Part shown: positions 48,755 through 64,000 of the stretch, piece after piece
Numbering within the stretch: position 1 is the first letter of the stretch
Layout: each line of letters begins with the position of its first letter
NCBI RefSeq assembly: GCF_018918095.1
Contig: NZ_JAHLPV010000001.1
Location: forward strand, 186,001-250,000
Reading direction: 5' to 3'
DNA from: Acetivibrio sp. MSJd-27
Lineage (GTDB): Bacteria; Bacillota; Clostridia; UMGS1840; HGM11507
DNA length: 64,000 bases
Program-made: the position numbers and the translations under genes
Notes under the pieces: model-generated
Database searches by the model: none
Told to the model about the DNA's origin: nothing
What the model saw: only the letters and a program-made list of their open reading frames with translations

Positions 48755-49690
48755 ATGAAAAATAATATAATCAAACTATTTGTGATAATTTTAATCATTA
48801 CAACAGTTAGCTGTTGTTCGCCTATGATATCGGACAAAAATCTATTAGAACAAGGCAATTCAAATGGAAATATTAAACAGATGGGGTATGTGGTTGAAAG
48901 AGAGGGATGGTTTTATTATTGTGATCCAACTGGAAATGGTGAATATAAGTTAAAAGATTGCTTGTTCAAGAAAAGAACTGATGGAAGTAACGTTCAAAAT
49001 TTGAGTAAAAATATAGCTTATCAAATTAATGTGGTCGGGAACTTTATATATTATATAAGTGGTGATCCGGGGCCTATATATAAAGTTAATAAGAATGGGG
49101 GAACAACTAAAAAACTTGAGGATAAACGTGCAAGTAATCTTATCGTTTTAGGAAATGAGATTTTTTACATAAGTGAAGGCTCATTGTATAAAATGGATGT
49201 TAACGGTCGAAATAAAAAGAAATTAAAGGATAATGTATTAGAATTTAGTATATGTGATAAGTTTATTTATTTTACTAGTTATAGTGAGCAATCTTTATAT
49301 AAATTTAATTTAGAAGGAGAAAATATTCAAAAGTTAAGTAATGATTATGCAAAAGATATTAATGTTGCAGATGGATGGATCTATTATTGGGAATTTAATA
49401 ATTCTAAAATTTATAAGCTGAAAGAGGATGGTACCGAAAAAATAATTTTAAGCGATGATATATGTAGAAACTTAAATTTACATCAAGGTGTTTTATATTA
49501 TCGTAATCAAGAAACAAATTCATCAATATATAAAATAAATATAGATGGAACAGGACGGACTAAAATTATTGATGGAAATATAGTTAACATCAATATTATA
49601 AACGATTTTATTGTATTCTATAAAATTACAGAAGGGAAAGGATATTATCGGATTAATACTAACGGCAAGAATCTGGAGTTGTGGCCATAG
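48755..49690 (+). CDS. DUF5050-like beta-propeller lipoprotein, candidate immunity protein
   Basis: A 311-residue lipoprotein with a signal peptide and lipobox TTVSC (cysteine near residue 20). The rest is built from repeats of about 40 residues with the pattern NFIYYISG...IYKVNKNG, WIYYWEFNNSKIYKLKEDGT, VLYYRNQ...IYKINIDGTG, as in DUF5050 propellers. It follows the toxin tip by 2 bp with AAGGGAG before its ATG and shares the tip's strongly AT-rich composition, both unlike the flanks. Position and composition suggest an immunity function, but DUF5050 proteins are common for other purposes. No terminator is seen directly after it; 49691-49861 holds no gene I can support. Confidence 0.75.
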   Translation: MKNNIIKLFVIILIITTVSCCSPMISDKNLLEQGNSNGNIKQMGYVVEREGWFYYCDPTGNGEYKLKDCLFKKRTDGSNVQNLSKNIAYQINVVGNFIYYISGDPGPIYKVNKNGGTTKKLEDKRASNLIVLGNEIFYISEGSLYKMDVNGRNKKKLKDNVLEFSICDKFIYFTSYSEQSLYKFNLEGENIQKLSNDYAKDINVADGWIYYWEFNNSKIYKLKEDGTEKIILSDDICRNLNLHQGVLYYRNQETNSSIYKINIDGTGRTKIIDGNIVNINIINDFIVFYKITEGKGYYRINTNGKNLELWP

Positions 49691-49861
49691 AATATAGTTG
49701 ACAACACCTCGGATATGTTAAACTGGATCAGGGTACGAAAATAATGTCACCTGTCGTCAGACATCAAATTCGTCTCCTGTCTTTTCCTCTGTATTTACCT
49801 ATACGTGAAAAACTGATAACCAATACAGCTAACAATCACATCTCATTTATCAAAAACTTGT

Positions 49862-49900
49862 AAAAAATGGGACTAGAGTAATTTCTAGTCCCCATTTTTT
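49862..49900. terminator. Bidirectional terminator at left end of tail/lysis module
   Basis: AAAAAATGGGACTAGA and TCTAGTCCCCATTTTTT form a long stem with U tracts on both strands. It ends the phage-like module (minus) just after the holin stop and also the lipoprotein transcript (plus). Confidence 0.9.
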
Positions 49901-49906
49901 CTCTTA

Positions 49907-50206
49907 TCAGCCTTCATCATTCTTTGAGCTCTGTTTTATTACCTGATTCACATAAACGCTTCCACCCGCTAACAAAATTCCTTGAGTGATTCCTGTAAAT
50001 ATCATAATAGCTACATCTTTATATGTATTTACATCAACCGTTGCAATTAAATAAATGACGGATAAAAGTATCCCGAATGCACCGAGAAGTAACGGAATAA
50101 AGTTATCGGAAATACTAGACTTTTTAATTGCCATTCCAATAAAATAGAGAACAGGAATCAGAACAAGAAGCTCCGGTTTTAAGTATTGCTGAATTAATTC
50201 ATACAT
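49907..50206 (-). CDS. Small phage holin-like membrane protein
   Basis: A 99-residue protein with three predicted membrane helices (about 13-26, 35-57, 65-85) and a short charged C-terminus, as in clostridial phage holins. CGGAGG precedes ATG at 50206. It is the last gene of the module, 39 bp after the amidase, the classical holin-endolysin neighbour relation. It would form membrane lesions that let the amidase reach the wall. Confidence 0.8.
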   Translation of the reverse strand: MYELIQQYLKPELLVLIPVLYFIGMAIKKSSISDNFIPLLLGAFGILLSVIYLIATVDVNTYKDVAIMIFTGITQGILLAGGSVYVNQVIKQSSKNDEG

Positions 50207-50245
50207 AATCGTTTCCTCCGTTTATTAATATTTTAATGATTACTA

Positions 50246-51445
50246 TCAATGCCACATTCCGACATTGTTGATTCTTCTATTACCATCCGTTGTTTCAATA
50301 ATCTCACCATTGCTGAGAACAAAACTTCCTCCACCATCTAATTTCACAACATCGGTGAGCCCAAGTGAAACCATCAGCCAATGCATTTCTTCATAGGCAC
50401 ATTTTTTTGCTACAAGGTAAATATCATTCCCCGAAATACCTAAAAAGTTGTGCCAAGTATTATATAACTCAGATCCGTCATATCCTTCGGATTTTATTTC
50501 GTCCATTGACACCTGCTTTCGATTTCTAGTAATCGGAATGCCGGAAATAGCAGTCTTAATGTTCTTATTCTCTAAATTAGCCATTTTAGATATACCAAAA
50601 GTTCCATCATTCTTCACATACAAGGTAGTCAATTCTTTTCCGGCCACGTTAATCCAACTGGGATTGTCCTTGGATTGTGCATAGATGATTCCACTGTCAA
50701 CCAAGTTCCCCACAGGAATTGTACCTTTATCCGTCCATGCAAAGAATCCGGCGTTAAAATAATTGTCTACATCCACATTATTCTTTGGACAGTCGCATTG
50801 ACAAAACCCCAAATTAGGAGGATAAATTTCCTGCTTGTAGGTATCTGTAATTTTATAAATGGTTCTTGGTTTACTCACAGTTACATTCTCCTTTTTGTGT
50901 CCAACGTGTTCAAACAGTCCGTCTGCAATTGCCTGTGCAAAATCCTGTTGCTTGTTTAATAGCAATTCTTCCTCTGATGGATTGCTAATGAATGCAGTTT
51001 CAACAAGGATAGCAGGGCAGTAGGTTTCACGAAGTACCTGCAAATTGCCTGTTTTTACGTCTCTGTCGGATGTCCCCATTCTTGTTATAATTTTTTCTTG
51101 AACTTTCTTTGCCAGTTTTTCTGCGTTTCCTCCAAATGCGCATACATATGTCTCTGAACCTTCTGCTTCTTCCGATTCGGAAGCATTACAATGAATTGAT
51201 ATAAAATATTCTGCACCAAAAGCATTCGATATTTTTGCTCTTTGTGCCAAACTGGAATGTAAGCTTGTCCCCAGACAATCGCTTTGTTTCTCCCTTGTCA
51301 TTTTTACTTCAAAACCGTTGGCGGTCAAAATATCCCGGAGGACGGAGGCAATCCCGTATGTAATGTCCTGCTCCCGTGATTTTCTACCGTTTGCCCCGGT
51401 ATCGTGGCCGCGATCATTGTGTCCCGCGTCTATACAGATTTTCAT
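50246..51445 (-). CDS. N-acetylmuramoyl-L-alanine amidase fused to phosphodiester glycosidase (NAGPA) domain
   Basis: A 399-residue phage-type lysin. Residues 1-165 are an Amidase_3 domain with zinc ligands H9 (DAGHN), E25 and H85 (ISIHCNAS) and catalytic E149 (LVETAF). Residues about 180-399 match the NAGPA/DUF2233 family of phosphodiester glycosidases (YFNAGFFAW; DVVKLDGGGS). The start is ATG at 51443-51445 with GGGGGAG upstream; codons further upstream are only open by chance. The enzyme lacks a signal peptide and so depends on a holin. A second hydrolase domain in place of the usual wall-binding modules is unusual; it could cleave GlcNAc-1-phosphodiesters of wall polymers. Confidence 0.88.
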   Translation of the reverse strand: MKICIDAGHNDRGHDTGANGRKSREQDITYGIASVLRDILTANGFEVKMTREKQSDCLGTSLHSSLAQRAKISNAFGAEYFISIHCNASESEEAEGSETYVCAFGGNAEKLAKKVQEKIITRMGTSDRDVKTGNLQVLRETYCPAILVETAFISNPSEEELLLNKQQDFAQAIADGLFEHVGHKKENVTVSKPRTIYKITDTYKQEIYPPNLGFCQCDCPKNNVDVDNYFNAGFFAWTDKGTIPVGNLVDSGIIYAQSKDNPSWINVAGKELTTLYVKNDGTFGISKMANLENKNIKTAISGIPITRNRKQVSMDEIKSEGYDGSELYNTWHNFLGISGNDIYLVAKKCAYEEMHWLMVSLGLTDVVKLDGGGSFVLSNGEIIETTDGNRRINNVGMWH

Positions 51446-51464
51446 GATTCCGCTCCCCCTTTCT

Positions 51465-52598
51465 TTAATATTTGATGCATGCAAGCATGGCCACGTTTCG
51501 CGGTCTGACACGGATAGAACTGCTGGAACCTGCGGAACTGCTTGTACCCGATATTTTGGAAGAGGAAGCGTTATCTGCATTTTCTTCGCCGTCCGTTCCA
51601 TACCAAGTGGCATTGAATGAGCCTAAATACAACTGTGTTCCTTCCTGGCTGTTTCCGAATACCCTGCCCGAGTCTATTCCTCTTCCATCGTCATAGCCGC
51701 GGAGAAACTCTGCCCGCAAATCCGGCAGTTGGAACGTGGTGCTTCCGTCGCCGGCACCGTAAGTCGTCCCGATAACTGCGAACAAAGCGCTGTATGCCGT
51801 TCTGCTGACAGCGCTTCCGTCGCATTTCAGATAACCGGCCGGAGGCGTGGCCGCCGCATAATAGATAACGGTGCCTGCCGGCACGCCTGTGTTTGCGTGA
51901 AGTTCATTGATTGCGGCTACCACCGACGTTTTCACCGTTGTCAAAAGACCGGAGAGCGCCCCCACATCGGTCAGGCTCCCGTCCGCTTCCACAATCCGCT
52001 TGTCATATACCTGCATGGTTTTCGCCGTGTTGTTCGTACCTGTCCCAAGTTGGATAGCGTCGATCGGTGTTCCATCATTTATGGTCACACAATTTGCTCC
52101 ATTTCCACATGCAACGCCATCACTCGTTGAAGCGCCTGCACCTACTGCACAGCCGGCGTTCGCCATTGAAAATTCGCCAATCGCTCCACCAGATGTGGTT
52201 GTTGCATTATCGCCCATTGCTCCTCCGCTTGTTGATACAGCGCCATACCCTACTGAACCTCCATACTCTGAATTTGCATTTTTTCCAATAGCTCCGCCTC
52301 TATTTGTATGTGCGCTATCACCGACCGCGCCGCCTTCTGTGGCAGAAGCTTGATTTCCTATTGCACCACCATATCCTGCACTAGCGCTTGATCCGCCTTC
52401 AAAACCACCATCTGCTGTACAAACATAAGCTTTTTCATTCAAAGCTGCTTGTGTCTGTGTGCTTATCGGCTTGTTTAAATCGCTTGTATTGTCCACGTTT
52501 CCAAGCCCAACCTTTGATTTTGCAATGGTACCGTTTTTATATGCGGTCACCGCGTTGTCCAAATCCTGCCCGCTGTTTTGCATAATATAATTTGCCAT
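51465..52598 (-). CDS. Phage tail-fibre protein with collar domain and 12-residue repeats
   Basis: A 377-residue fibre. The N-terminus has the fibre motif LGNVDNTSDLNKPIS (33-47). Residues 77-172 contain eight tandem 12-residue repeats of the form GGAIGxxAxxxx, as in trimeric YadA-like heads. A tail collar domain follows (about 245-315: GTVIYYAAATPPAGYLKCDG, TTFQLPDLRAEFLRGYDDG), and a Ser-rich tip ends in VRPRNVAMLACIKY. AAGGAGG precedes ATG at 52598. It likely mediates host binding. The gene is 12 bp after the large tail protein. Confidence 0.87.
   Translation of the reverse strand: MANYIMQNSGQDLDNAVTAYKNGTIAKSKVGLGNVDNTSDLNKPISTQTQAALNEKAYVCTADGGFEGGSSASAGYGGAIGNQASATEGGAVGDSAHTNRGGAIGKNANSEYGGSVGYGAVSTSGGAMGDNATTTSGGAIGEFSMANAGCAVGAGASTSDGVACGNGANCVTINDGTPIDAIQLGTGTNNTAKTMQVYDKRIVEADGSLTDVGALSGLLTTVKTSVVAAINELHANTGVPAGTVIYYAAATPPAGYLKCDGSAVSRTAYSALFAVIGTTYGAGDGSTTFQLPDLRAEFLRGYDDGRGIDSGRVFGNSQEGTQLYLGSFNATWYGTDGEENADNASSSKISGTSSSAGSSSSIRVRPRNVAMLACIKY
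52083..52370 (-). repeat. Eight 36-bp coding repeats in the fibre gene
   Basis: Encodes GGAIGNQASATE, GGAVGDSAHTNR, GGAIGKNANSEY, GGSVGYGAVSTS, GGAMGDNATTTS, GGAIGEFSMANA, GCAVGAGASTSD and GVACGNGANCVT. The period is exactly 12 codons. These units can be gained or lost by recombination, changing fibre length. Confidence 0.8.
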
Positions 52599-52609
52599 GT
52601 TAAACCTCC

Positions 52610-55444
52610 TTAAAATTGAATCACTGTTTTCCCATCGTTTGTCACAACCTTTTCCCCGTCGGAAGTGAGCAGATAATCTGCGGATAACTCGCTGCTGTTT
52701 TCCGTGAGGGAGGGATAAAGAACCCGCATTCCGCCCGTCTGTTTATCGGCGGAAAGGCAGGTGTAATATTGTGCTGTTTTGAGTTTCAAAAGCTCCTGCG
52801 CCCAAGTTTCGGCAGAGTAATCCGTCTCAACCGGAGTGTTTAAGACATACTGTACAGTAACCGGAGTTCCCAGAGTCTTTTGACTGCTGCAATAATTACG
52901 CATTGCGTCCCCCGCCTCGGTTGTGGTAGGGGTGCTTGTAAAACCAAGTGCCGACCAAGGAACACGTATATATGATTTATAGTTATAACTTTCTCCTAAA
53001 ATAGTTAAATCGAATCCATGAGATGTAAATCCCGTTGTACCATATTTACATGTGTCATAATTATCATTAAACTTTATAAAGTACCAACAATATTGCTGTG
53101 TTTCCGAACCCACCGTATTAAGCACACAACGGTTTAAATTGGCGTCAAGCTCAAATTGTCTTATATGCTGATATTTTTTAACCGCGTTCCCATCGCAAAT
53201 CAGATAATCCTTGTCATCCGATATAGATCCCAGGCTGAGCGGTATCTCCGCGCTGGTGCAGCGGTATTTGTCGACAAACGGTATCGTGTCACCTTCCACA
53301 AACATGGATTTTGTGATGTTGGTAATCCTCTGTCCGTTTCCGCCGGTTCCGTACAGCACAAAGGTATTCTCTGTAAAATCCCAATCGACCGGGATTTGTT
53401 TTGCTGTGCCTATGCTAAATCTTACCCACTTTGTTTGGCTGCTGTTGTATAAAAGCAGATTCCCGATGTTGTCATTCTCCGTCCCGCTTACAACTTCATA
53501 ATCACAGCGCCATGTGTAGGTTTTGCCAGCCTTTAGGCATGTCATATCGACATATTCTGTCACATTATTCGCATACTGGTTAAGCGTGATATTCCCGCCG
53601 GAAAACAGATTTTTCCCCCTGCTCGTCACTGTCACATTCGATAAGTCATAGAATTTCTGCGGATAATCTGACGATGGTGTGATTGATTCCGGCGGTGTGG
53701 GGTTAAAAGGCTCATAGCTTCCACTGTAAGAGCTTCCTAATTCTCCTGTAAACTGTGTTACTGTTTTCCCCACTAAACTAGAGTTCGTGTATAATCTAAC
53801 GGTGTCTGCTCCTAGTAAATCCTCTGTGATGGTGATTGCTCTGTTTGGAGATTTATTATAGACCTGTACCCCGTCTTTTAAGATGATAAATGCAGAGTTA
53901 TTACTGTTGATTGCAGTTCCGTCGTCGCAAACACCTCCTCCAAAGTAATAGGTTTCCCCAAGCACAAAAGGGGGTGCTGGCCAGTCCTTTGTAGTTGACC
54001 CAGTGCCATTTGTCGTGTACGGTTCAAAAGGTATTAACTGCTTTCCGTAAGCCGTCCACGGCAATACAGGCAATGTGCTTGACTCGACTTTTGTAAAGGT
54101 TAAGACGGTTTTTAAAGGGGTTGTCCGCGGAAGGATAGCTATAGGATCGTTTTCATTCAGCCATCTTAAACATGACTGCCTGCATATCTCTCTATCGCTA
54201 AAGTCTGTGATATCCAGATGTTCTTTCAAAATGTCAAAAAATAAAACTTGTGGTGTGTCCGTTCCTAAATATAGCCGAATGTTATCTCGGTTATAATAGG
54301 AATAAGAGACAAACTTAAAATGGCTACACTCCAACTGATTTGCTTTAATTTTCGCTTTGTCGATGTCGGCTCTTTGTGCAAAATGGAGCGCATCGTCCGT
54401 CAGAACACTAAAGCTTGCTGTAGAATTATCCTTTAAGTGATGTTCTTGCGTGTTTTGCTCCAAATATCCTGTTCCGCTCACGCTGTCAAATCGGATAAAA
54501 TCCCGGTATGTATCATCCAATCCCCGCAAATCCTCTGTCAATGTCACCTCATAAATCCCGTTTTCCGTGGGTATCTGATAGCTTCCAGCGGAGATGTGGG
54601 AGGTTAATTCAGAGGGATAAGCAGGAGAAGGTTTGCTGTATTCATACTCCTGATACGTTTTTGATGTGTCGCCTTCCACAATCATCAGATTGCTTATTGT
54701 TAATGTTTGACTCAGACAAAACGGATAGATATAAAATTTATAATCCCCTTCCTCCGGTACTGTTATAACCCCGTTACAATTTCCCCAAATCGGTTCTGAT
54801 ATGCCGGAAAAACCAACACTATCAAGCGTTCCGCTCTCAAGATTTCCGCTTACATAATAAGAGCCTGCTTTTAAATGGATCGCTTTCTGATTTTCAAGAA
54901 ACGAGTTGTAGTTGTCGTTGTCAGCAAAATCAAATGATACGCTCCCTTTTCCGGTCACTATATTGGTGATTCCTTTTTCATCGTCACTGCCTGCCGGAAG
55001 CCATTCTGCTTCACAGTCTAAGAGATTGTATCCTGTTTCCTGTATTTGTGTTGTCACCCCCTCCGCCTGATTCCATTTTGCCTTCTGCCCGCTTTTTCCG
55101 AACACCTTCAGCGTCTCATAAGGTGCGTTGACGGTATTCTCCAAAACCAATCCGCTTCTCTCGTCCGGTGTAATCGTTCTGAAATCGAGGTAGGAAACCA
55201 CTCCGTCTCTTTCTGTCCAGGCTTTGCCTGCCGCCGGATCGGCGTTCAGGCTTCCCTCCGTCAAGTCGGAGGGAAGAAAAAGAAGCCAATCCGTGCCGTC
55301 CAGAGATACCTGGTATTTGCCGGCGGCAACAGGAGGGAGACAGGTATAGCTTCCATCCGCTGCGGAAAACAGCAAATCCGGATAAAGCCCGGGTGATTGC
55401 GCGGCGGCCGTTGTGTATAAAACGCGGTTCTGTTCTGTAAACAT
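52610..55444 (-). CDS. Large phage-like tail/receptor-binding protein
   Basis: A 944-residue protein with no membrane helices. It repeats beta-rich jelly-roll-like modules: several stretches follow the pattern of carbohydrate-binding domains in phage tail tips (LKAGSYYVSGN, FVLGETYYFGGGV, CLKAGKTYTWRCDYE), and PSPAYPSELTS and ESITPSSDYPQKF are the PSPxYPSE linkers seen in siphophage tail proteins. The C-terminus ends in SDGEKVVTNDGKTVIQF. Start ATG at 55442-55444, with AGGAGGG upstream. It lies between BppU-like and fibre genes, so it is probably the adsorption part of the tail tip. Confidence 0.78.
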   Translation of the reverse strand: MFTEQNRVLYTTAAAQSPGLYPDLLFSAADGSYTCLPPVAAGKYQVSLDGTDWLLFLPSDLTEGSLNADPAAGKAWTERDGVVSYLDFRTITPDERSGLVLENTVNAPYETLKVFGKSGQKAKWNQAEGVTTQIQETGYNLLDCEAEWLPAGSDDEKGITNIVTGKGSVSFDFADNDNYNSFLENQKAIHLKAGSYYVSGNLESGTLDSVGFSGISEPIWGNCNGVITVPEEGDYKFYIYPFCLSQTLTISNLMIVEGDTSKTYQEYEYSKPSPAYPSELTSHISAGSYQIPTENGIYEVTLTEDLRGLDDTYRDFIRFDSVSGTGYLEQNTQEHHLKDNSTASFSVLTDDALHFAQRADIDKAKIKANQLECSHFKFVSYSYYNRDNIRLYLGTDTPQVLFFDILKEHLDITDFSDREICRQSCLRWLNENDPIAILPRTTPLKTVLTFTKVESSTLPVLPWTAYGKQLIPFEPYTTNGTGSTTKDWPAPPFVLGETYYFGGGVCDDGTAINSNNSAFIILKDGVQVYNKSPNRAITITEDLLGADTVRLYTNSSLVGKTVTQFTGELGSSYSGSYEPFNPTPPESITPSSDYPQKFYDLSNVTVTSRGKNLFSGGNITLNQYANNVTEYVDMTCLKAGKTYTWRCDYEVVSGTENDNIGNLLLYNSSQTKWVRFSIGTAKQIPVDWDFTENTFVLYGTGGNGQRITNITKSMFVEGDTIPFVDKYRCTSAEIPLSLGSISDDKDYLICDGNAVKKYQHIRQFELDANLNRCVLNTVGSETQQYCWYFIKFNDNYDTCKYGTTGFTSHGFDLTILGESYNYKSYIRVPWSALGFTSTPTTTEAGDAMRNYCSSQKTLGTPVTVQYVLNTPVETDYSAETWAQELLKLKTAQYYTCLSADKQTGGMRVLYPSLTENSSELSADYLLTSDGEKVVTNDGKTVIQF

Positions 55445-55455
55445 CCTCTTCCCTC

Positions 55456-56802
55456 CTAGGCTTTGCCGTAGGGCATGCAATTCCAAACCATCTTGTCAGC
55501 AAATTTCTTTGCGGTGTAGACCATGGCCTGGTTTCCCACCGGCTCCAGCAGACCGAAGGCCGCGCTCCGCTCCTCCTCCGGAATCTGCAGAAGCCCGCCG
55601 CCGCTGACATAGATGGAAAGCTCCGCCCCGTTGGGCATATTGGTTATGTTGATCGGTTTATCCGAACCGATAGCGACCATAGCGTTTTCATTCTGTGAGA
55701 AATCGTACGCGATTACCTCCGCCGTGCCGTCCAGTACCAGCGGGGCAATATAGCGTCCGGAAAGATCCCGGTAAGAACCGGAATAGGCAACCTCCGCCAA
55801 ATCCAGAATACTGGAAAGCGTCTGTTTGTCAAAGACCGAATAGGGAATTTTCCCGATCAACAGCCACTCGTTGGGCACATGATTGCCGTCCTTGTCCACC
55901 GTGTCGTAGATATACCACTGGGTTTCGCCGCTGTTAAAATCCGTGATAAAGCACCAGTCATCCGTCTTTTGATCGGTGATTGCCGTCATCTCCGCTACGG
56001 AATTTTTATAGTATATGCGCGGGAATTTTGTGACGTTGTCCATCATTTTCAGATAGAGCTCATTGCAGGCCGCCTGTGCCGCGGATGCGGACTGTGCCGC
56101 GCTCAGGGCGTTGTCCTCACTGATTTCACTTCCATTTTGTGCTTCCAGTGCCAAATCCTTGGCACTGCTTGCGGCGACCGCCTGCCTTGCCGCTTCCAGC
56201 TCGCTCTGCTTGGCGTTGTCCGCACTGCTTTTTGCCTCTTGTGCGCTGTCAGCTGTTTGGCTTTGATACGCTTCGGCGGTCGTCAGCATCGACTGCATAT
56301 CCGCTTCATAGTTGATGATTCTTTCATCCACCTCTGTTTTGGTGTAGGTGTCGGCCTTGTCCGCCTTTCCCGTCTCCAGCGCCGTGAGCCTGGTGTTCGC
56401 AGCGGTCAGATCGTTTATCACCGTATCCATAACGGTTTCATCCTGGGGCTGTCCGGGAATATTGTCCATGTCCCCGATGCCCTCCTTGACCTGGTAATAG
56501 ACCTTCTGCACCGTCAGGGCGCTTTCCCCGTCATACAGGGCGACAATCAGCTGGTTCTTCCCAATCTGAGAAACCGCGCTCCCGTCCAGCGGAACGCACA
56601 AGGTATCCCCCTGGATATTCGTCTGAAGCTTATAGGCGTCGTTTAGCTTGACCACTGCGGACTTGTCCGCCAGCGGGATGGGAACCCCTTTCTCCTCGAA
56701 CTGTATCACAATCCGGTTTCCCGTGTCGTGCTGGCAGAACACCAGATTGGAATAATTTTTTTCCTGATAGAGATCCAGTGTGATGTGATAGCACCGTTCC
56801 AT
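55456..56802 (-). CDS. BppU-like phage baseplate upper protein
   Basis: A 448-residue protein. The N-terminal 120 residues match BppU-type baseplate domains (FCQHDTGNRIVIQFEEKGVP, GQPQDETVMDTVINDLTAAN). A coiled-coil rod of about 100 residues (140-245, rich in A, S and E) follows, then a beta-rich C-terminal part with sugar-site-like strands. AGGAGG precedes ATG at 56802. In siphophages BppU links the baseplate to receptor-binding proteins; here its partner would be the next gene downstream. Confidence 0.85.
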   Translation of the reverse strand: MERCYHITLDLYQEKNYSNLVFCQHDTGNRIVIQFEEKGVPIPLADKSAVVKLNDAYKLQTNIQGDTLCVPLDGSAVSQIGKNQLIVALYDGESALTVQKVYYQVKEGIGDMDNIPGQPQDETVMDTVINDLTAANTRLTALETGKADKADTYTKTEVDERIINYEADMQSMLTTAEAYQSQTADSAQEAKSSADNAKQSELEAARQAVAASSAKDLALEAQNGSEISEDNALSAAQSASAAQAACNELYLKMMDNVTKFPRIYYKNSVAEMTAITDQKTDDWCFITDFNSGETQWYIYDTVDKDGNHVPNEWLLIGKIPYSVFDKQTLSSILDLAEVAYSGSYRDLSGRYIAPLVLDGTAEVIAYDFSQNENAMVAIGSDKPINITNMPNGAELSIYVSGGGLLQIPEEERSAAFGLLEPVGNQAMVYTAKKFADKMVWNCMPYGKA

Positions 56803-56813
56803 TTCGCAGCCTC

Positions 56814-57203
56814 CTATTCCCCGTCGTTTTTGAGTTGTTCCAGTACGTTGGTGAGTTTTTTTGGCAGAGGAACACCCAGCGTGCCCGCGTTTTCCAGAAT
56901 GCTGATGCCCTCGTTTGCCGCGTAAAAGCCGATGACAAAGGAGCGCACCTCACAGATGCCGACCGCCTCCCCCACTAGATGGGCTACCGCGACAATGCAC
57001 AGAATGCACACCTTTTTGATGATTCCCCGAAATCCAATCCGGGAGGACAGCTCCCGCTTGGCGATGCCGCACAGCACGCCGGTCAGATAGTCCATCCCCA
57101 TCAGGACGAGCAGGACAAAAAGCAGCATGTCCAGCCCTCCGAACAGATAGGATAACGCCGCCGATACCGCCGCGGCACACAGTTTTATGTATTGCTGATT
57201 CAT
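56814..57203 (-). CDS. Phage holin, holin_4_1 (toxin secretion/phage lysis holin) family
   Basis: A 129-residue protein with three to four membrane helices and the family signature DYLTGVLCGIAKRELSSRIG near residue 40 and GIIKKVCILCIV near 60. AAGGAGG precedes ATG at 57203. It sits 17 bp after the 632-residue unknown protein and before BppU, away from the amidase, so the module has two holins of different families. Confidence 0.93.
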   Translation of the reverse strand: MNQQYIKLCAAAVSAALSYLFGGLDMLLFVLLVLMGMDYLTGVLCGIAKRELSSRIGFRGIIKKVCILCIVAVAHLVGEAVGICEVRSFVIGFYAANEGISILENAGTLGVPLPKKLTNVLEQLKNDGE

Positions 57204-57220
57204 TGTTTTCCTCCTTTTCC

Positions 57221-59119
57221 TTACAGCGCCTGCGCCTGCCGCCGGAGCTCCTGCTCCGCTTTTTTCTTGGCGTCGTACAGGGCGAGCATTTTTTCCGTGG
57301 AATCCATGGATGTAAATTTTGGATTTTCCTTGGCTTCACTCAGAGCCAAATCAACCATTTTACCGTAGTTCTTTTTATAATAACGAAGCTGTTCTTCCGT
57401 CAATGGAGCTTGCTTTTCTTTTTCCAGGGTGATCTCTTTTTCTTTCTCCGGTAAACGGAACGCGTTTTTCACTATTTTTTGATATCCCTTGTCCGCTGCT
57501 TTCCACTTTATTTTTTCCGGATCCCCCATATCCCGAAGCGTCTTTTTCACATCATAGGGATCGGAATAATCGTCCGGTTTCTTTGTATCGGATTTCATTA
57601 TTTTGGAAGGCGCGGTGAATCGTCCCGCCGTTTTCTCCGCAAACTGCATTGCCGCCTCGTCCAGCGATTTCTTATCTTTTACGGCATCGATAACGGTTTC
57701 ATACAGATCGCTTACGACACCCTCTATATTCTCTTTCACATTTTCGGGAATCCGGTCATAAATTTTCTCAAACGTTTTGGTATATTTCGTGGACTGAAAA
57801 GGCAGCTGAAACAAAACCTTCGGGCTCAAGACCTTGCCGTAGACCGCTTCAAGAACTACGTTGGTCGCTTTGCCGGCCAGCGTCGCCCCAGGATGCTCCT
57901 CTTCCGCCCGCTCCCGGCGCTGCGCCCTGGCGTCCTCCACCTTTTTGACGCCGAACACGTCGTCCTCTGGATCATCCAGAAGGTTCCGAATACCCCTTTC
58001 CAAATCAAATCCTTTTTTGGTCAGTTGATTGAAGTAAGCCTCCCCCGATGTGGTGGCGCTCTGCTCCAGCTTGTCGGCACGATAGTCGTTGAGAGCGATT
58101 TTAGCGTCCGCTTCCGCCTGTCCCTGATAGCCGTGATTCATAACCCATTCCCGGTCATGGGAGGCTTTCACACCGGGGAGCTGTCCTCCTGCCGGCTCCT
58201 TTAAAAGACCCATTTTTTCCTCGATCTTTTGTTTTCTTTCAAATTCCTGATAATCTTTCTTTTTGAAAAACCGGTCCAGATGGTTATACATTTGGTTTAC
58301 CGTTTTGGGATCCCACTGGGTCATATCGTCCACGTCAATATGATTCTTCTGAATATAAGTGTCGTATCCCTGCCGGTGCAATTCATCCGCAAACTCCTGC
58401 GCGGCGGCGGCGTCATCCCCAAAAAGGCGCTTTGCCATCCGCAGGGAGGCAGATTCCTGGGCGTATTTTTCGGCAAGCTGGGCATTCCTCAACTCTTTTT
58501 TCTGTTTTTCCGATTCCTGTCTTTCTTTGAAATGATTGATTTCTTCCTGTAAGGAACCAATGTTTCCAAGCTGTTTCAGCGTATTTCCTTGTTCAAATAT
58601 ATTTTTCCGGGAAGTGGGAACAGACGCATTTCCGACGATTTCAAATCCGTTGGACATGGTTCCCGTGTTCTTCGGCTGTGAAGGCGTATCGCTGCCGGCA
58701 TTACTTGACGCTTCCCCATTCTCTCTATTCGGATTGGGAATCAGCTGTGTGTTGGGATATTTCGGGGGTGCGGCGGAAAGCGTTGTCCCCGGATAGGACG
58801 CAGGATCCTTTTTTGGGGCATTTTCGGAGGAAGGGCTGTCCAAAAAAAGCTTTTGATAAAACGGCGTCTCCTTTTTTTTCGGTCCGAAAGACGGAGAAGA
58901 GGTTTGGAAAGCAGACGCATTTCCCGCCGGGGATTCCGTGCGGACAGAGCTGCCGCCCTGGGCGGCGGCGCTTCGGTTCCTTTCCTCCTGCGCGGCTTCC
59001 TCCCCATAATATTCTTCCAGAAACTGATCAAAGCTCAGATTGGTTCTGCCTCCCCGCACGGTTTCATACTCCCGCAGGGCAATTTCTCTCTCTTTTTGTT
59101 TTCTCTGTTCTTCTGTCAT
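57221..59119 (-). CDS. Unrecognised 632-residue helical protein of the tail/lysis module
   Basis: I do not recognise this protein. It starts at ATG 59117-59119 with AAAGGAGG nine bases upstream. Residues 1-40 are charged helix (EEQRKQKEREIALREYE), about 50-170 are a disordered S/P/N/G-rich linker, about 170-330 a coiled-coil rod rich in K, E, Q; about 400-500 holds a mildly hydrophobic stretch (LSPKVLFQLPFQSTKYTK), and the end is again strongly charged helix (PEKEKEITLEKEKQ). There is no signal peptide or transmembrane helix. It has the same general plan as the 666-residue protein at 61611-63611. Such proteins resemble internal or ejected phage proteins, but that is only analogy. Confidence 0.8.
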   Translation of the reverse strand: MTEEQRKQKEREIALREYETVRGGRTNLSFDQFLEEYYGEEAAQEERNRSAAAQGGSSVRTESPAGNASAFQTSSPSFGPKKKETPFYQKLFLDSPSSENAPKKDPASYPGTTLSAAPPKYPNTQLIPNPNRENGEASSNAGSDTPSQPKNTGTMSNGFEIVGNASVPTSRKNIFEQGNTLKQLGNIGSLQEEINHFKERQESEKQKKELRNAQLAEKYAQESASLRMAKRLFGDDAAAAQEFADELHRQGYDTYIQKNHIDVDDMTQWDPKTVNQMYNHLDRFFKKKDYQEFERKQKIEEKMGLLKEPAGGQLPGVKASHDREWVMNHGYQGQAEADAKIALNDYRADKLEQSATTSGEAYFNQLTKKGFDLERGIRNLLDDPEDDVFGVKKVEDARAQRRERAEEEHPGATLAGKATNVVLEAVYGKVLSPKVLFQLPFQSTKYTKTFEKIYDRIPENVKENIEGVVSDLYETVIDAVKDKKSLDEAAMQFAEKTAGRFTAPSKIMKSDTKKPDDYSDPYDVKKTLRDMGDPEKIKWKAADKGYQKIVKNAFRLPEKEKEITLEKEKQAPLTEEQLRYYKKNYGKMVDLALSEAKENPKFTSMDSTEKMLALYDAKKKAEQELRRQAQAL

Positions 59120-59186
59120 AGAAACGGCCTCCTTTATGGTAAATATATTGATGACTTCCAATTATATGGGAATATTGGAAAATTTC

Positions 59187-59214
59187 TTGATTATTTCTTT
59201 TGTTGTGTTATAAT
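59187..59214 (+). promoter_or_regulatory. Promoter of the two lipoprotein genes
   Basis: Plus strand TTGATT (59187-59192), 16-base spacer, TATAAT (59209-59214). A 21-bp imperfect palindrome CCAATTATATGGGAATATTGG just upstream (59158-59178) could be an operator. It gives the lipoprotein pair independent expression against the direction of the tail genes. Confidence 0.65.
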
Positions 59215-59282
59215 AATAAAGTCGAATTTTGAAGGAATATGTTTGAAAATAAAAAATTTATTTATGGTTAGGAGATTGTGAT

Positions 59283-60341
59283 ATGAAAAAAACAAAACAG
59301 ATGATTTGTATGTTTCTTGCATGTTTGCTCCTTCCGCTGAGCGGCTGTACTTCTTCGGAAGATACCATTTCCGAGCTTCAGAGGGCGTCCTTTGTGATGG
59401 AGGAGCTTGAAAAGCTGCAGATGACTCAATTCAATATGGAATATCTGACAAATCTTCTCGACTTTTATACGGATGGATTTTCTATGCTGTCGGATGAGCT
59501 GATAAAGCATGGCGCGGAACAAGCGCTTGCTACTGCAAAGGAAAACACGCAGTATCTGGAAGAGAGCCGGGAAAGCCTGGGTGCCATGCGGGAAAACATT
59601 CGTCTGATGCATCTTCCCGGAATGGATGAAACCACGCTGGATGAAATTTTCAAAATATATGACAATCTCCTTTTGTCACTGAAAGATTATTTCACAGCGC
59701 TTTATCGGAATGGGGAATATACAGATTTTCAGCAGCTTTCCAGCTATTATCTCGACGAGTATTTTCTGGAGCGCACCCGCGATCTTTGCGGACTCTATTA
59801 TGACTCCTGTACCAAACACCTGGAAAATTATAAAGGAAGCTTCCTGAAAAAGCGGATTGCAGACGATTTTAAAAACGCAGCCCGCCTTTCCTCCTCCTTG
59901 TATCAGCTGACAAATCTGGCGATTGGCATACATGACTCGGTTTATGAGAATTACATATCGCTGACAGCCGCCGTGATTGAAAACTCCACTAGCATCGTGC
60001 AGTATGCTAAGGAGGATCGCGACCGGCTGGATACCCTTTCCAAACAGCTGGATGAGTTTTCCGCCTCCGCCGCAGAATTTCAGAACACTGCCGCTGAAAT
60101 TGACGTTGACCTCTCCGGGCTGGATGACACGATCGCCTCCCTTAAGAAAAGTCTGGAAGATATTTACCGGCTGAATGACGGCATTATGAATTATGAAAAA
60201 TCAAAGGGTTCTGAAATTTATCTGGAGGCAATCGACACCGTATCGGAACTGGACAAAACGATAGCCGAAAATATCCGGCAATGCTCCGATTACAATTGGA
60301 ATGTCAAAAAATTTATGGGCCTTTACGGTCTGGAACAATAA
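59283..60341 (+). CDS. Helical lipoprotein, unknown function (moron-like, first of pair)
   Basis: A 352-residue lipoprotein: signal peptide of about 21 residues with lipobox PLSGC, then almost entirely alpha-helical with heptad-like regions (MEELEKLQMTQFNMEYLTNL, LDDTIASLKKSLEDIYRL). It would sit on the outer face of the membrane. AGGAG precedes ATG at 59283. It shares size, layout and the block LPGMDETTLDEIFKIYDN with LPSLGVTQQHLDAMFENY of the next gene, so they look like distant paralogues. Its position, divergent to the tail genes, resembles lipoproteins that block superinfection, but no family is recognised. Confidence 0.8.
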   Translation: MKKTKQMICMFLACLLLPLSGCTSSEDTISELQRASFVMEELEKLQMTQFNMEYLTNLLDFYTDGFSMLSDELIKHGAEQALATAKENTQYLEESRESLGAMRENIRLMHLPGMDETTLDEIFKIYDNLLLSLKDYFTALYRNGEYTDFQQLSSYYLDEYFLERTRDLCGLYYDSCTKHLENYKGSFLKKRIADDFKNAARLSSSLYQLTNLAIGIHDSVYENYISLTAAVIENSTSIVQYAKEDRDRLDTLSKQLDEFSASAAEFQNTAAEIDVDLSGLDDTIASLKKSLEDIYRLNDGIMNYEKSKGSEIYLEAIDTVSELDKTIAENIRQCSDYNWNVKKFMGLYGLEQ

Positions 60342-60400
60342 AAATTTTAAAAAGCACAAACCCCGCCGCTATTTTTTTACCGCGGCTGAAAAGGAGAGAC

Positions 60401-61492
60401 ATGATGAAAAAAAATTTACGGCGGCTGATTCCGCTCTTTGTTGCATGCACGGTTCTTTTCGGAGGCTGTACCTCCCCGCAGAAAGCGGAAAAACAGCTTA
60501 TTTTGGATTTGAAAAGCGCGGCTTCCCTGCTGCAGTTCTCCGGCGAAACAATGGCAGCCCGATACCGTATGCACGTATCGGCAAACAACGCTTCCCTCTT
60601 AAGCGCCCAAACGGTTATGACCGAAGAAAACTTTCAGAAACAAGTGAAAAGCGGCAAGGAATACCTCGTGAAGAACGCGGAAATCCTGCTCGGCATTCAG
60701 GAGCAAACCCTGCCCAACGCAATTATTTACATCACCAGCCTGCCCTCCCTCGGCGTTACGCAGCAGCATCTTGACGCCATGTTTGAGAACTACCGGACGG
60801 CGAATGTCTCCTTCTCCACCTGCTTCAGCAAAGCGGAGAAGAGCGGCACCAAAACCAGCTTCAAGGAGTTGGAGCCCACCCTCAAGGAGGGGCAGGAAGC
60901 CCTGAAAAAAGCGGATGAAACCATCCAAAAGCTTCAGTCGGCTTTAAGTCAGTTTATCACGGATTACAACAAGGATTCAGGTGATTTGGGCTGGAAGATA
61001 GCCATGAAATCCAACCTTTCTTCTGTTGAACAGGCGCAGGCTTCCAACCGGGTTCTCACACGCTGTTTCGAGCTCACCGACTTAACGATTTCGCTTTCGG
61101 ATTTCTACAGCCAGTTTTCCAGAACCATCTTCAGCCAGAATCAGGCGAATGGTTTTCCTTCCTCCGCGATCAGCGAAAACCGGACGCTTCTCCGTTCCAT
61201 TTCCCAGAAGCTGGAGGAATGGAAAACAAGCGGGGAGGAGGTCAAACAGAACGCGGACTTGCTTGGTCTGGATTCCGCCGCTTATACCAAAGTCCTGAGT
61301 GAAATGCAGACGGCTGTGCAGAAAGCGGACGCCGCGCTTTCGGCGATGGAAACGAAGAACGCCAGCCAGCTGTCCTCTTCGGTATCGGCGTTTGAAAAGG
61401 CATACGAAAACCTGTCCGCCTCCCAAAATGAGCTTGCCACGCTTATCCATACCTGCTCAAAACAATTGCTGGATCACTTCAGCAATCCGTAA
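60401..61492 (+). CDS. Helical lipoprotein, unknown function (second of pair)
   Basis: A 363-residue lipoprotein (ATG at 60401; the next ATG at 60404 is equally likely, AAAGGAG upstream). Lipobox LFGGC, then long helical regions with repeated leucine and alanine heptads (LKEGQEALKKADETIQKLQS, MQTAVQKADAALSAMETKN). It shares its plan with the preceding lipoprotein, 60 bp upstream, and is cotranscribed. It ends facing the convergent 666-residue gene across the terminator at 61499. Function unknown; an exported surface protein of the module. Confidence 0.8.
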   Translation: MMKKNLRRLIPLFVACTVLFGGCTSPQKAEKQLILDLKSAASLLQFSGETMAARYRMHVSANNASLLSAQTVMTEENFQKQVKSGKEYLVKNAEILLGIQEQTLPNAIIYITSLPSLGVTQQHLDAMFENYRTANVSFSTCFSKAEKSGTKTSFKELEPTLKEGQEALKKADETIQKLQSALSQFITDYNKDSGDLGWKIAMKSNLSSVEQAQASNRVLTRCFELTDLTISLSDFYSQFSRTIFSQNQANGFPSSAISENRTLLRSISQKLEEWKTSGEEVKQNADLLGLDSAAYTKVLSEMQTAVQKADAALSAMETKNASQLSSSVSAFEKAYENLSASQNELATLIHTCSKQLLDHFSNP

Positions 61493-61498
61493 TCTCTT

Positions 61499-61525
61499 GC
61501 GGTTGCCCTTTCGGCAGCCGCTTTT
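61499..61525. terminator. Terminator between convergent genes
   Basis: GCGGTTGCC and GGCAGCCGC (one G-T wobble) with a CTTTC loop, followed by TTTT on the plus strand. It ends the lipoprotein pair. Confidence 0.75.
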
Positions 61526-61610
61526 CATAATTACGGTTTGGGTTCGGGACGATGCCCACATCGACCCGTTCCCCTTTGTTCTTTGCGCTCTGTTCTCTGT
61601 CCTTCGTTCC

Positions 61611-63611
61611 CTACCTCTGCCCTTCCACAAATCTCTGGAAAGAGGTCAAAACCTGGTTTCTGCGCTGCTCCTCCAACATTCTTTGCTCCTTCCGGCCTGT
61701 CATCTGAAAGGCAGGGCTGTTCCGCAATTTTTCAAGCTCCTGTTCCAACACGCCGTACAGCTCGGTAAGCTGATCCCGCGTATACATTCCCTTATCCAGC
61801 TCTGACAGCGGCGCTTCCCCCTCGTTCTTTTTCGATTGGTTCACGCGCTGGTTATAAGCCTCCGCCTTCTCCCGAAACTGCCGGTCGGTCACTTCCTTGG
61901 ATTCCTGTTCCTGCAATGCCTTCGTCCGAAGCAGCTCCGCCCCGGACTTGCGCTGCGGCAGGCTGAAATCCTCTTTTATGGTTTCCCCCGCCCAGTCTAT
62001 GGCAGCGCCAACATTCTTTTGCGTCCGTTTCTTTGGCGATTCCAATGCCCATTTCCCCAGCACATCGCGCCCTATTAGAGCGCGTTCAAGCTGCTCCGGT
62101 GCAAGCGCTTCCCCTATTTTAAGAGAGCCTCCGACCGTATCCAATACTTTTCCGGTTCCCAAATCAAACAGGGTTCCCGTCACGGTATCCCTTGAAGCTT
62201 CCCAGCCGTTTTTTTCATCCATCTTATAATCCGAAATATTTTCAACCGCGTTATCCAAAGCCGTGGCGGCGGGAGCAAGCGCTCCGGCACTGCGTATCAC
62301 GGCAACATTTGCAATGTCTCCAATGGCCGATCCAACGCCGGAAACAACCGGATTCGCCATCCGGCGGATTTCGCTGTATGTATAATCGCTGGCCTTTGGA
62401 TAGCCTTTCTCCGCCCAGCCCTCCTTATTATTCACATACCCTATTGCGTCCGGCGCCCCCTCCAAAAAACTGTTTAGACCGGAATAAAGAAAGTTCAGCG
62501 CCGGATTGGCGGTCCGCGCGACCGAATAGAGCGCGTTCCGATAGTACTTCGCCATCTCGGATTTCTCGTCGTCTTCCCTGGCGGCCGTGTTGATCAGGTT
62601 TTCATAGGTTCCGAAGTTATCCTTGATTCCCTGCTTGAAATCTTCGTTTAAATATTGCTCCGCGTTTTTGATATTGACATTCATGAAGTCCGGCATCGTG
62701 CCCTCAAACATCTCGCCCAAACTGGCGCGGTAAGCCGCGTCTGCCGCCTCATGCTCCTCCTTCTTCTGTTTTGCCTGTGCTTTCTGGTTGTCCTGAGACT
62801 GCCGGTTTGCCATACTGGATACCATCATGTTCCGCATCTGGTCAAAATTCAGTTTTTTCTGCGTTTTCTCCTCATCAATATTCAGCCTTTCGTCATATAC
62901 CTTCTGATTAAAGTGGCTATCCTTCAGATATTCCATTGCATACGCCTGTTTCTCCGGCTCTCCCGGAAACAGGTATTCAGCCGCCTTTTCGGCGGGTGTT
63001 TTTTCCCGATAGCCATCCCAAAAAGCGTCCTCTTTTGCTTGCAGGCGATTGTGATAAGCGTTTGCTTTTTCGATGTTGTTTTTTTCAATCACCTTCTGCG
63101 AAGCCTGCGCCTCTTTTGCTTTCTGATACGGCGCCCCGAGGAGCTTGTCCAAATCAAGCTTGACATATTCCGTGCCCAGTTCGCGGCTACGCTCCATCTC
63201 CCGGTTCGCCAGCCGCTCTTCCATGCTGATTTCGCTTCCGCGGTTCGGTTTCTCCTCCCCGCGTGGGCTTGTCCACGTTTTTGTGTAAGGGAGCTGGAAA
63301 GGATCCTTTATGCTTGTCCCGCCAAGCTGCGGCTTGTTTCTGGAATCGCCGGTTTGGTACGTGCCTGCAGTGCGGCCGCCGGAAACGCTTCGGGAAACGC
63401 CCGCTCCTCCGGAGCTGCCTCCCCCGCCGAAATTTTTTCCGATTCCGGAAATCCCCTGCGTCGTTGACATCGTTGCCGTGTCCGCCCCTTTCTGATACTC
63501 CGGCGGAAGATCCAAGCCATATTTTTTGGCAAAATCTTTCGGGGATATGCCCGGATTCTGTTTTAACTCCTCTGCGTATTCCTCGTCAAATAATTGTTTT
63601 TCACTTTTCAT
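61611..63611 (-). CDS. Unrecognised 666-residue helical protein of the tail/lysis module
   Basis: I do not recognise this protein. ATG at 63611 follows AAGGAGG. Order: charged N-terminal helix (MKSEKQLFDEEYAEEL), a Gly/Ser/Thr-rich linker (about 50-115), a long charged helical region (about 130-330), a stretch of small and hydrophobic residues (about 370-460: ANPALNFLYSGLNSF, VVSGVGSAIGDIANVAV) that could be amphipathic or membrane-active, and a charged helical end (QELEKLRNSPAFQMTGRKEQ). No signal peptide. It matches the 632-residue protein in layout though identity is low. Being the promoter-side gene of the module, it may be a structural or ejected protein; this is inference. Confidence 0.8.
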   Translation of the reverse strand: MKSEKQLFDEEYAEELKQNPGISPKDFAKKYGLDLPPEYQKGADTATMSTTQGISGIGKNFGGGGSSGGAGVSRSVSGGRTAGTYQTGDSRNKPQLGGTSIKDPFQLPYTKTWTSPRGEEKPNRGSEISMEERLANREMERSRELGTEYVKLDLDKLLGAPYQKAKEAQASQKVIEKNNIEKANAYHNRLQAKEDAFWDGYREKTPAEKAAEYLFPGEPEKQAYAMEYLKDSHFNQKVYDERLNIDEEKTQKKLNFDQMRNMMVSSMANRQSQDNQKAQAKQKKEEHEAADAAYRASLGEMFEGTMPDFMNVNIKNAEQYLNEDFKQGIKDNFGTYENLINTAAREDDEKSEMAKYYRNALYSVARTANPALNFLYSGLNSFLEGAPDAIGYVNNKEGWAEKGYPKASDYTYSEIRRMANPVVSGVGSAIGDIANVAVIRSAGALAPAATALDNAVENISDYKMDEKNGWEASRDTVTGTLFDLGTGKVLDTVGGSLKIGEALAPEQLERALIGRDVLGKWALESPKKRTQKNVGAAIDWAGETIKEDFSLPQRKSGAELLRTKALQEQESKEVTDRQFREKAEAYNQRVNQSKKNEGEAPLSELDKGMYTRDQLTELYGVLEQELEKLRNSPAFQMTGRKEQRMLEEQRRNQVLTSFQRFVEGQR

Positions 63612-63890
63612 GGGTACCTACCTCCTTTTTTGTATATTTCGTAGGGCGCTCCGCTTTGTTTGGGATGAAATCTCCTCAGAAAATAGAATTAATATTACAA
63701 TTTTATCAGATATTATCCGATTAATTTCCAATATACTCATCCTTAATTTGTTTGCATTCTGTTTATTTCAGAAATCTCTCCCGCGCCATTCCGTTTTTCC
63801 TGCGTTCGCCCGTTGTTGCCCCTGTTATCCAGTTCGTTTCCACAACCTGTCATTCTAAGCGAAGGGAAGTATCTCATTTCCTTCTCGTAC

Positions 63891-63974
63891 CGTAGGGGCG
63901 GATATTCCGGCGGTTTCGTTGTAGGGGAGGGGTTCCATCCCCTCCCGTCGTAGGGGCGAACTGCGTTCGCCCGC
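63891..63974. repeat. Tandem palindromic intergenic repeats
   Basis: Three units start with GTAGGGG. Two are hairpins: GGGGAGGGG-TTCCA-TCCCCTCCC (63924-63946) and GGGCGAA-CTGCG-TTCGCCC (63954-63972). A GTAGGGCG fragment at 63641 and GCGTTCGCCCG near 63802 look like decayed copies. This is the type of short palindromic repeat scattered between genes in many Clostridia genomes. Apart from these copies I see no gene in 63612-64000. Confidence 0.6.
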
Positions 63975-64000
63975 CTTCCCTATCGTTTTCCGCAATCTGT

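Follow-up and report, generated by a model that had tools for sequence, protein, structure and literature searches.

LP1 and LP2, two adjacent genes lying within a prophage, form what sequence analysis supports as a real, intact and orphan lipoprotein pair. The pair is likely a moron, and phage exclusion by its products is plausible. The explanation that we tentatively prefer combines these points: LP1 and LP2 would be a moron cassette for lysogenic conversion, carried by a prophage that is probably cryptic, and would encode surface lipoproteins that most likely serve phage exclusion.

The window, i.e. the whole stretch of 64,000 nucleotides that was analysed, covers positions 186001–250000 of contig C1 in a genome of 3.05 Mb and 104 contigs. 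The prophage spans from about 49907 to about 90.2 kb on the window scale, i.e. it continues for about 26 kb past the window on the same contig (Table 1). Its further minus-strand genes on this contig encode a capsid-like protein and the large terminase, and other prophage genes code for SSB, a Lin1244-type protein and a sigma-like protein. The pair is located within the structural block, approximately 29 kb from the repressor gene. An integrase was not found among the larger prophage frames run through Pfam (79606–81366 and 65142–66341 on the window scale aside), hence the prophage may be cryptic. It also shows signs of decay, specifically, dispersed repeats in many gaps and duplicated partial gene copies, and we consider it probably cryptic. 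Since the prophage looks degraded, LP1 and LP2 may be idle.

Table 1. Features of the lipoprotein gene pair and the surrounding prophage. Coordinates refer to the window unless preceded by a locus name; CuAO, copper amine oxidase.
Feature	Coordinates	Strand	Description
LP1	59283–60341	+	352 aa, predicted lipoprotein; lipobox LSGC, Cys22; eight main helices
LP2	60401–61492	+	363 aa, predicted lipoprotein; lipobox FGGC, Cys23; eight main helices
Sigma-A-type promoter	59187–59214	+	TTGATT-16-TATAAT, TG extended -10
Inverted repeat	59156–59180		TTCCAAT-N11-ATTGGAA, directly upstream of -35; probably chance
Intrinsic-terminator-like hairpin	61499–61521	+	stem of 9 pairs and T-run, downstream of LP2
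P0002	57221–59119	-	632 aa, flanks the pair; no family
P0003	61611–63611	-	666 aa, flanks the pair; no family
Phage holin (Phage_holin_4_1)	56814–57203	-	E 5.2e-41
Tail-fibre-like protein, weak	55456–56802	-	phrog_26941, E 8.7e-5
Tail collar/fibre protein	51465–52598	-	PF07484, E 1.3e-24
Endolysin	50246–51445	-	Amidase_3 fused to NAGPA phosphodiester-glycosidase domain; frame searched 50246–51613
Second holin (Phage_holin_5_2)	49907–50206	-	E 7.4e-25; left edge of prophage
CuAO1	L004:4338–5117	+	exported; copper-amine-oxidase N-terminal domain and helical-looking tail
CuAO2	L004:6805–7581	+	exported; copper-amine-oxidase N-terminal domain and helical-looking tail
S24-type repressor	L005:9597–10202	+	same contig

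Neither product of the large genes on either side of the pair, P0002 or P0003, could be matched convincingly to Pfam, PHROGs or NCBIfam, and a search of 391 genomes of the class with P0003 returned only its own genome. The sequence-only reading had described the pair as an interruption of minus-strand tail genes. The big flanking genes are indeed on the minus strand, but the term tail module is loose, as P0002 and P0003 fit no family convincingly and the genes that can be recognised as fibre, holin or endolysin occupy 49907–57203. Many gaps of the prophage contain a dispersed GC-rich repeat with palindromic pieces (e.g., L004:3800–4093 and L004:6300–6560), a short piece of which, at 61532–61567, adjoins the LP2 terminator. 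A 65-base probe from this repeat matched the genome at 20 places, of which seven fall inside the prophage, which makes up about 1.3% of the genome, and seven more on contig C7.

LP1 and LP2 are arranged head-to-tail on the same strand with 59 bases between them, and are thus tandem rather than divergent, as they had been called initially; the feature as first delimited ended at 61525 and takes in the terminator, whereas the LP2 coding sequence stops earlier. Good Shine-Dalgarno sequences were recognised by eye before both genes, and the LP2 start codon may be at either 60401 or 60404. When all six frames were scored against host codon usage, the annotated frame was far ahead in both LP1 (0.356 versus 0.051 for the best other frame) and LP2 (0.300 versus 0.074). 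Each N-terminus, inspected by eye, has the basic start, hydrophobic stretch and lipobox of a signal peptide, from which a lipid anchor is predicted, the phenylalanine at position -3 of the LP2 lipobox being less usual. The third-position GC content of the two genes (0.52 and 0.65) is similar to that of the flanking genes (0.55 and 0.61).

The two proteins share 22% identity over 304 aa in a BLASTP comparison (E 9e-8). After removal of the signal peptides, the mature sequences align with a local score of 98, compared with a shuffle mean of 41.5 and a score of 58 for the reversed-sequence control; this score was reached in 0 of 500 shuffles and, likewise, in 0 of 500 shuffles of 20-residue blocks. 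By these alignment tests LP1 and LP2 are true paralogues, and they are the only two copies in their genome. An internal repeat within either protein is not claimed, as the comparison of halves gave scores of only 37 and 42. The initial description of two paralogue-like lipoproteins is borne out by the alignment and, as read from the sequence, by the lipoboxes.

Consensus matches for a promoter and a terminator of the pair's own, as initially proposed, were recovered on both sides of it. Dinucleotide shuffling of the 163-base gap yielded a promoter of the same or better quality in 11 of 1000 sequences, while the wider 2.9 kb region has five promoter-like sites against a shuffle mean of 2.9, which is no clear excess. 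No promoter-like site was listed in the gap between LP1 and LP2, suggesting that both genes are likely transcribed as a single bicistronic message. The palindrome upstream of the promoter, which had been placed at 59158–59178 and proposed to control the pair, extends slightly further on both sides. We rejected it as an operator, since a perfect arm of equal or greater length appeared in 73 of 200 shuffles. Its exact sequence occurs once in the whole genome, so that no shared regulon is visible, and no such inverted repeat was found in the 221 bases around the start of the repressor gene. A search for Rfam families in the region 49000–64000 returned none.

The AlphaFold2 models of both proteins are almost wholly helical, in agreement with the sequence-only reading. 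Built from a two-sequence alignment, they reach moderate confidence (LP1: pLDDT 69.3, pTM 0.67; LP2: pLDDT 77.5, pTM 0.73), with wide variation among the five models of each protein. The helix segments can be read in each model as two four-helix bundles in tandem, the first helix beginning three residues past the anchor cysteine, in a part with low pLDDT that corresponds to the place of the serine-rich spacer in Ltp-type exclusion lipoproteins. At an E-value of 0.001 or better, Foldseek returned nothing for LP1 in PDB and BFVD and nothing for LP2 in BFVD; for LP2 against PDB, only the VIA second look was used. The LP2 model aligned best with the nitrate-responsive antiterminator NasR (4akk; Z 15.6, 251 residues, rmsd 4.5) and BF3319 (3iee; Z 14.0, 254 residues, rmsd 5.5), followed by ligand domains of chemoreceptors (Z about 10–12). 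For LP1 the best match was a designed bundle (Z 10.7, 160 residues, rmsd 2.6), and its C-terminal half matched Tar with Z 9.2–9.4. It should be noted that helical models often reach Z values of about 14 without known kinship and that most of the values obtained here are within this background, therefore the structural matches point to tandem bundles and nothing more.

Searches for homologues were carried out with LP1 or profile A1 in genome_contigs, plasmids and the sampled genomes, and with LP2 alone in phages, viral_contigs and its own genome. LP1 hit 19 pattern stretches and no relatives in genome_contigs, and LP1 and LP2 hit two and four pattern stretches, respectively, and no relatives in viral_contigs. 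Nothing was found in the phage collection with either protein or in the plasmid collection with LP1. In three overlapping samples, each of which includes the own genome, there was a single weak match besides the latter: LP1 gave 2 of 148 genomes of relatives, and profile A1 gave 2 of 391 genomes of the class and 2 of 398 genomes of the phylum. On reading, two of these three weak matches are chemoreceptor-type coiled coils and one is a helicase-like protein; they look like coiled-coil matches and were not accepted as relatives of LP1 and LP2. With no homologues recovered from these collections and samples, the refuting condition set in the sequence-only reading, homologues mostly in chromosomal, non-phage contexts, does not come into play.

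None of the PADLOC models matched LP1 or LP2 at an E-value of 0.01, and neither the Ltp nor the NIT family was present among the Pfam matches of the mature proteins up to E 10 (for LP2, among the best 25 of 26). Against the sequences of solved structures, the best E-values were 0.22 for profile A1 and 0.15 for LP2. No relative with a known function was obtained.

The relatives of the prophage were traced through its terminase. In two of them (G006 and G008), the portal-like, capsid-like and tail-type genes follow each other on a single strand with short gaps and without any exported insert, and L075 and G128, as far as they were covered, have the same uninterrupted one-strand appearance. These uninterrupted blocks suggest that antisense exported genes are peculiar to the present prophage among those seen. 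Direct counterparts of P0002 and P0003 are not recognisable in these relatives, so that the uninterrupted block of G006 and G008 merely suggests that the pair may have been inserted between genes adjacent in related phages. The 643-aa protein of the prophage matches a 1628-aa protein of G006 with 28% identity over query residues 333–494 (E about 1e-5). No related phage was found when viral_contigs was searched with P0003, CuAO2 and the 948-aa and 643-aa proteins. Relatives of the terminase with conserved neighbours also occur in other Clostridia (G004, G005, G007, G105, G051, G128, L073, L074 and L075). In L074, L075 and G128 the same upstream genes adjoin the terminase gene, and in G105 and G051 it occurs without other recognised phage genes, in a shared chromosomal order; these relatives could represent a domesticated terminase or a gene-transfer-agent-like element.

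The structural block holds more surface cargo, as indicated by two additional antisense exported proteins with helical parts, CuAO1 and CuAO2, which are 58% identical and are encoded by AT-rich genes (GC3 of 0.30 and 0.31). The copper-amine-oxidase N-terminal domain is frequent in this host, as the CuAO profile has 46 matches in the genome, including these two. Their unit appears to be tandemly duplicated, because L004:5142–6341 repeats part of the protein encoded by L004:7609–10179. The helical part of CuAO1 has, in the 391 genomes of the class, its own match and two weak ones, one in a chemoreceptor-like protein and the other in a protein without a certain name. An alignment of mature LP1 with the helical part of CuAO2 starts at matching places and scores 69, a value reached in 2 of 500 shuffles; a domain common to LP1 and the CuAO proteins is not claimed, as the probability was just 1.4% when profiles were compared.

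P0002, P0003 and the 643-aa protein (L004:17398–19329) have in common an N-terminal stretch of approximately 25–35 residues, a candidate sorting tag. The similarity of P0002 and of P0003 to the 643-aa protein was reached in 0 of 2000 shuffles each, and that between P0002 and P0003 in 121 of 2000. After the gene of the 643-aa protein comes a small AT-rich gene (L004:17076–17408), a layout that, at a guess, resembles that of a toxin with its immunity gene. On reading, the start of the frame L004:15794–16960 nearly duplicates a segment inside the 643-aa protein, so that the prophage has two segmental duplications. A barnase-like ribonuclease frame (L005:2317–3031) and a barstar gene beside it adjoin the terminase gene; on reading, this frame opens with what seems to be the last part of a minor head protein of the MuF type, and it looks like what is left of a MuF polymorphic toxin.

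The proposal that LP1 and LP2 are a moron-type cassette was supported. Their own promoter and terminator, antisense orientation and export signals, as well as the uninterrupted block in G006 and G008, argue for it. A base composition unlike that of the phage is one of the usual marks of morons, and this mark is absent from LP1 and LP2 in terms of GC3, unlike the CuAO genes of the same prophage; their similarity to the neighbouring genes argues against a recent capture. In the scenario that we prefer, the promoter would drive a bicistronic message for two paralogous lipoproteins, which would be exported and tethered by a lipid anchor to the outside of the cytoplasmic membrane, each exposing two tandem four-helix bundles outside. 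Because the pair runs against the late operon, it could be produced while the structural genes are silent, although such lysogenic expression is deduced from gene arrangement, and it would meet antisense transcription once these genes switch on. The most likely function would be blocking the entry of phage DNA or ejection proteins at the envelope, in the manner of Ltp-type exclusion lipoproteins. Exclusion is favoured because, among the possible functions, no other has as good a precedent as that set by Ltp from phage TP-J34 (PMC3952083). Superinfection exclusion, as first proposed, was neither directly supported nor directly refuted by the searches, which gave no homologue and no match to the Ltp or defence families. 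The lack of a family or defence match, the position in the structural block and the neighbour-like GC3 all count against exclusion, and the moderate-confidence fold models obtained from a two-sequence alignment count against the preferred explanation as well.

An unlikely but serious alternative is that the prophage confers on its host a lipoprotein pair for ligand sensing, solute binding or adhesion, without any anti-phage role, the bundles being sensor or binding domains. The structural neighbours of LP2 (NasR, BF3319 and chemoreceptor ligand domains) and the resemblance of the C-terminal half of LP1 to Tar point in this direction, but most of these Z values are within the helical-model background, there is no sequence match to NasR, BF3319 or chemoreceptor families, and no transporter or kinase gene was recognised beside the pair. 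It is quite unlikely that LP1 and LP2 are an idle remnant, i.e. a long-standing insertion, within a prophage undergoing decay, whose frames are still open but have no present function. The intact promoter, the two intact long frames and the host-like codon usage argue against such a remnant, whereas the lack of an integrase among the large frames examined, the dispersed repeats, the duplicated partial genes and the absence of relatives that could reveal selection are consistent with it.

Immunity lipoproteins shielding the lysogen from its large tagged neighbours or from toxins of kin phages appear improbable. The N-terminal motif of P0002 and P0003 recurs in the 643-aa protein, whose gene precedes the small AT-rich gene, and the prophage also carries barnase-like and barstar genes; however, the members of those gene pairs share one strand, while LP1 and LP2 are opposite to their neighbours, and no toxin domain was recognised in P0002 or P0003. 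Very improbable is a kin-discrimination island, in which the tagged proteins (P0002 and P0003 flanking the pair, and the 643-aa protein with the immunity-like gene after it) are particle-borne and ejected, and LP1, LP2 and the CuAO proteins, on the surface of the lysogen, block the uptake of these same ejected proteins or of kin phage DNA. The least probable role is that of a late accessory of envelope lysis or a component of the particle: LP1 and LP2 are located among structural, holin and endolysin genes, but on the opposite strand and with their own promoter and export signals, and the related prophages lack the pair.

Prophage surface proteins help to decide which phages enter a lysogen, and many of them are unrecognised. 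If LP1 and LP2 exclude phages, Gram-positive exclusion lipoproteins gain a tandem-bundle architecture unlike that of Ltp, and the tagged, possibly ejected neighbour proteins suggest where to seek the target; if they do not, the pair is one more orphan conversion gene.

Among the known systems, the ligand domains of Tar-type chemoreceptors correspond in the models to one four-helix bundle each and thus to either half of LP1 or LP2, which have no transmembrane or signalling part and carry a predicted lipid anchor instead. BF3319 from Bacteroides fragilis, for which no function was found in the literature, is likewise all-helical and covers most of the LP2 model, but at the helical background and without a sequence match. 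The all-helical arrangement of NasR aligns over both modelled bundles of LP2, again without a sequence match. NasR is a cytoplasmic RNA-binding protein with a sensor domain of the NIT family, whereas LP2 is a predicted lipoprotein. The closest functional precedent is different in sequence. Ltp is a lipoprotein expressed from the TP-J34 prophage that is located outside the membrane and prevents DNA injection, and its gene sits in the lysogeny module; a work cited there names, in its title, the tape measure protein as the Ltp target (PMC3952083). By sequence comparison LP1 and LP2 are not members of the Ltp family: they lack a match to it, and with it the Ltp repeat domain, they form a tandem paralogue pair of 352 and 363 aa, and their genes run antisense within the structural block, not in a lysogeny module as the Ltp gene does. 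What they appear to share with Ltp is a prophage origin, a predicted lipid anchor and, in a Gram-positive host, a predicted location on the external side of the membrane.
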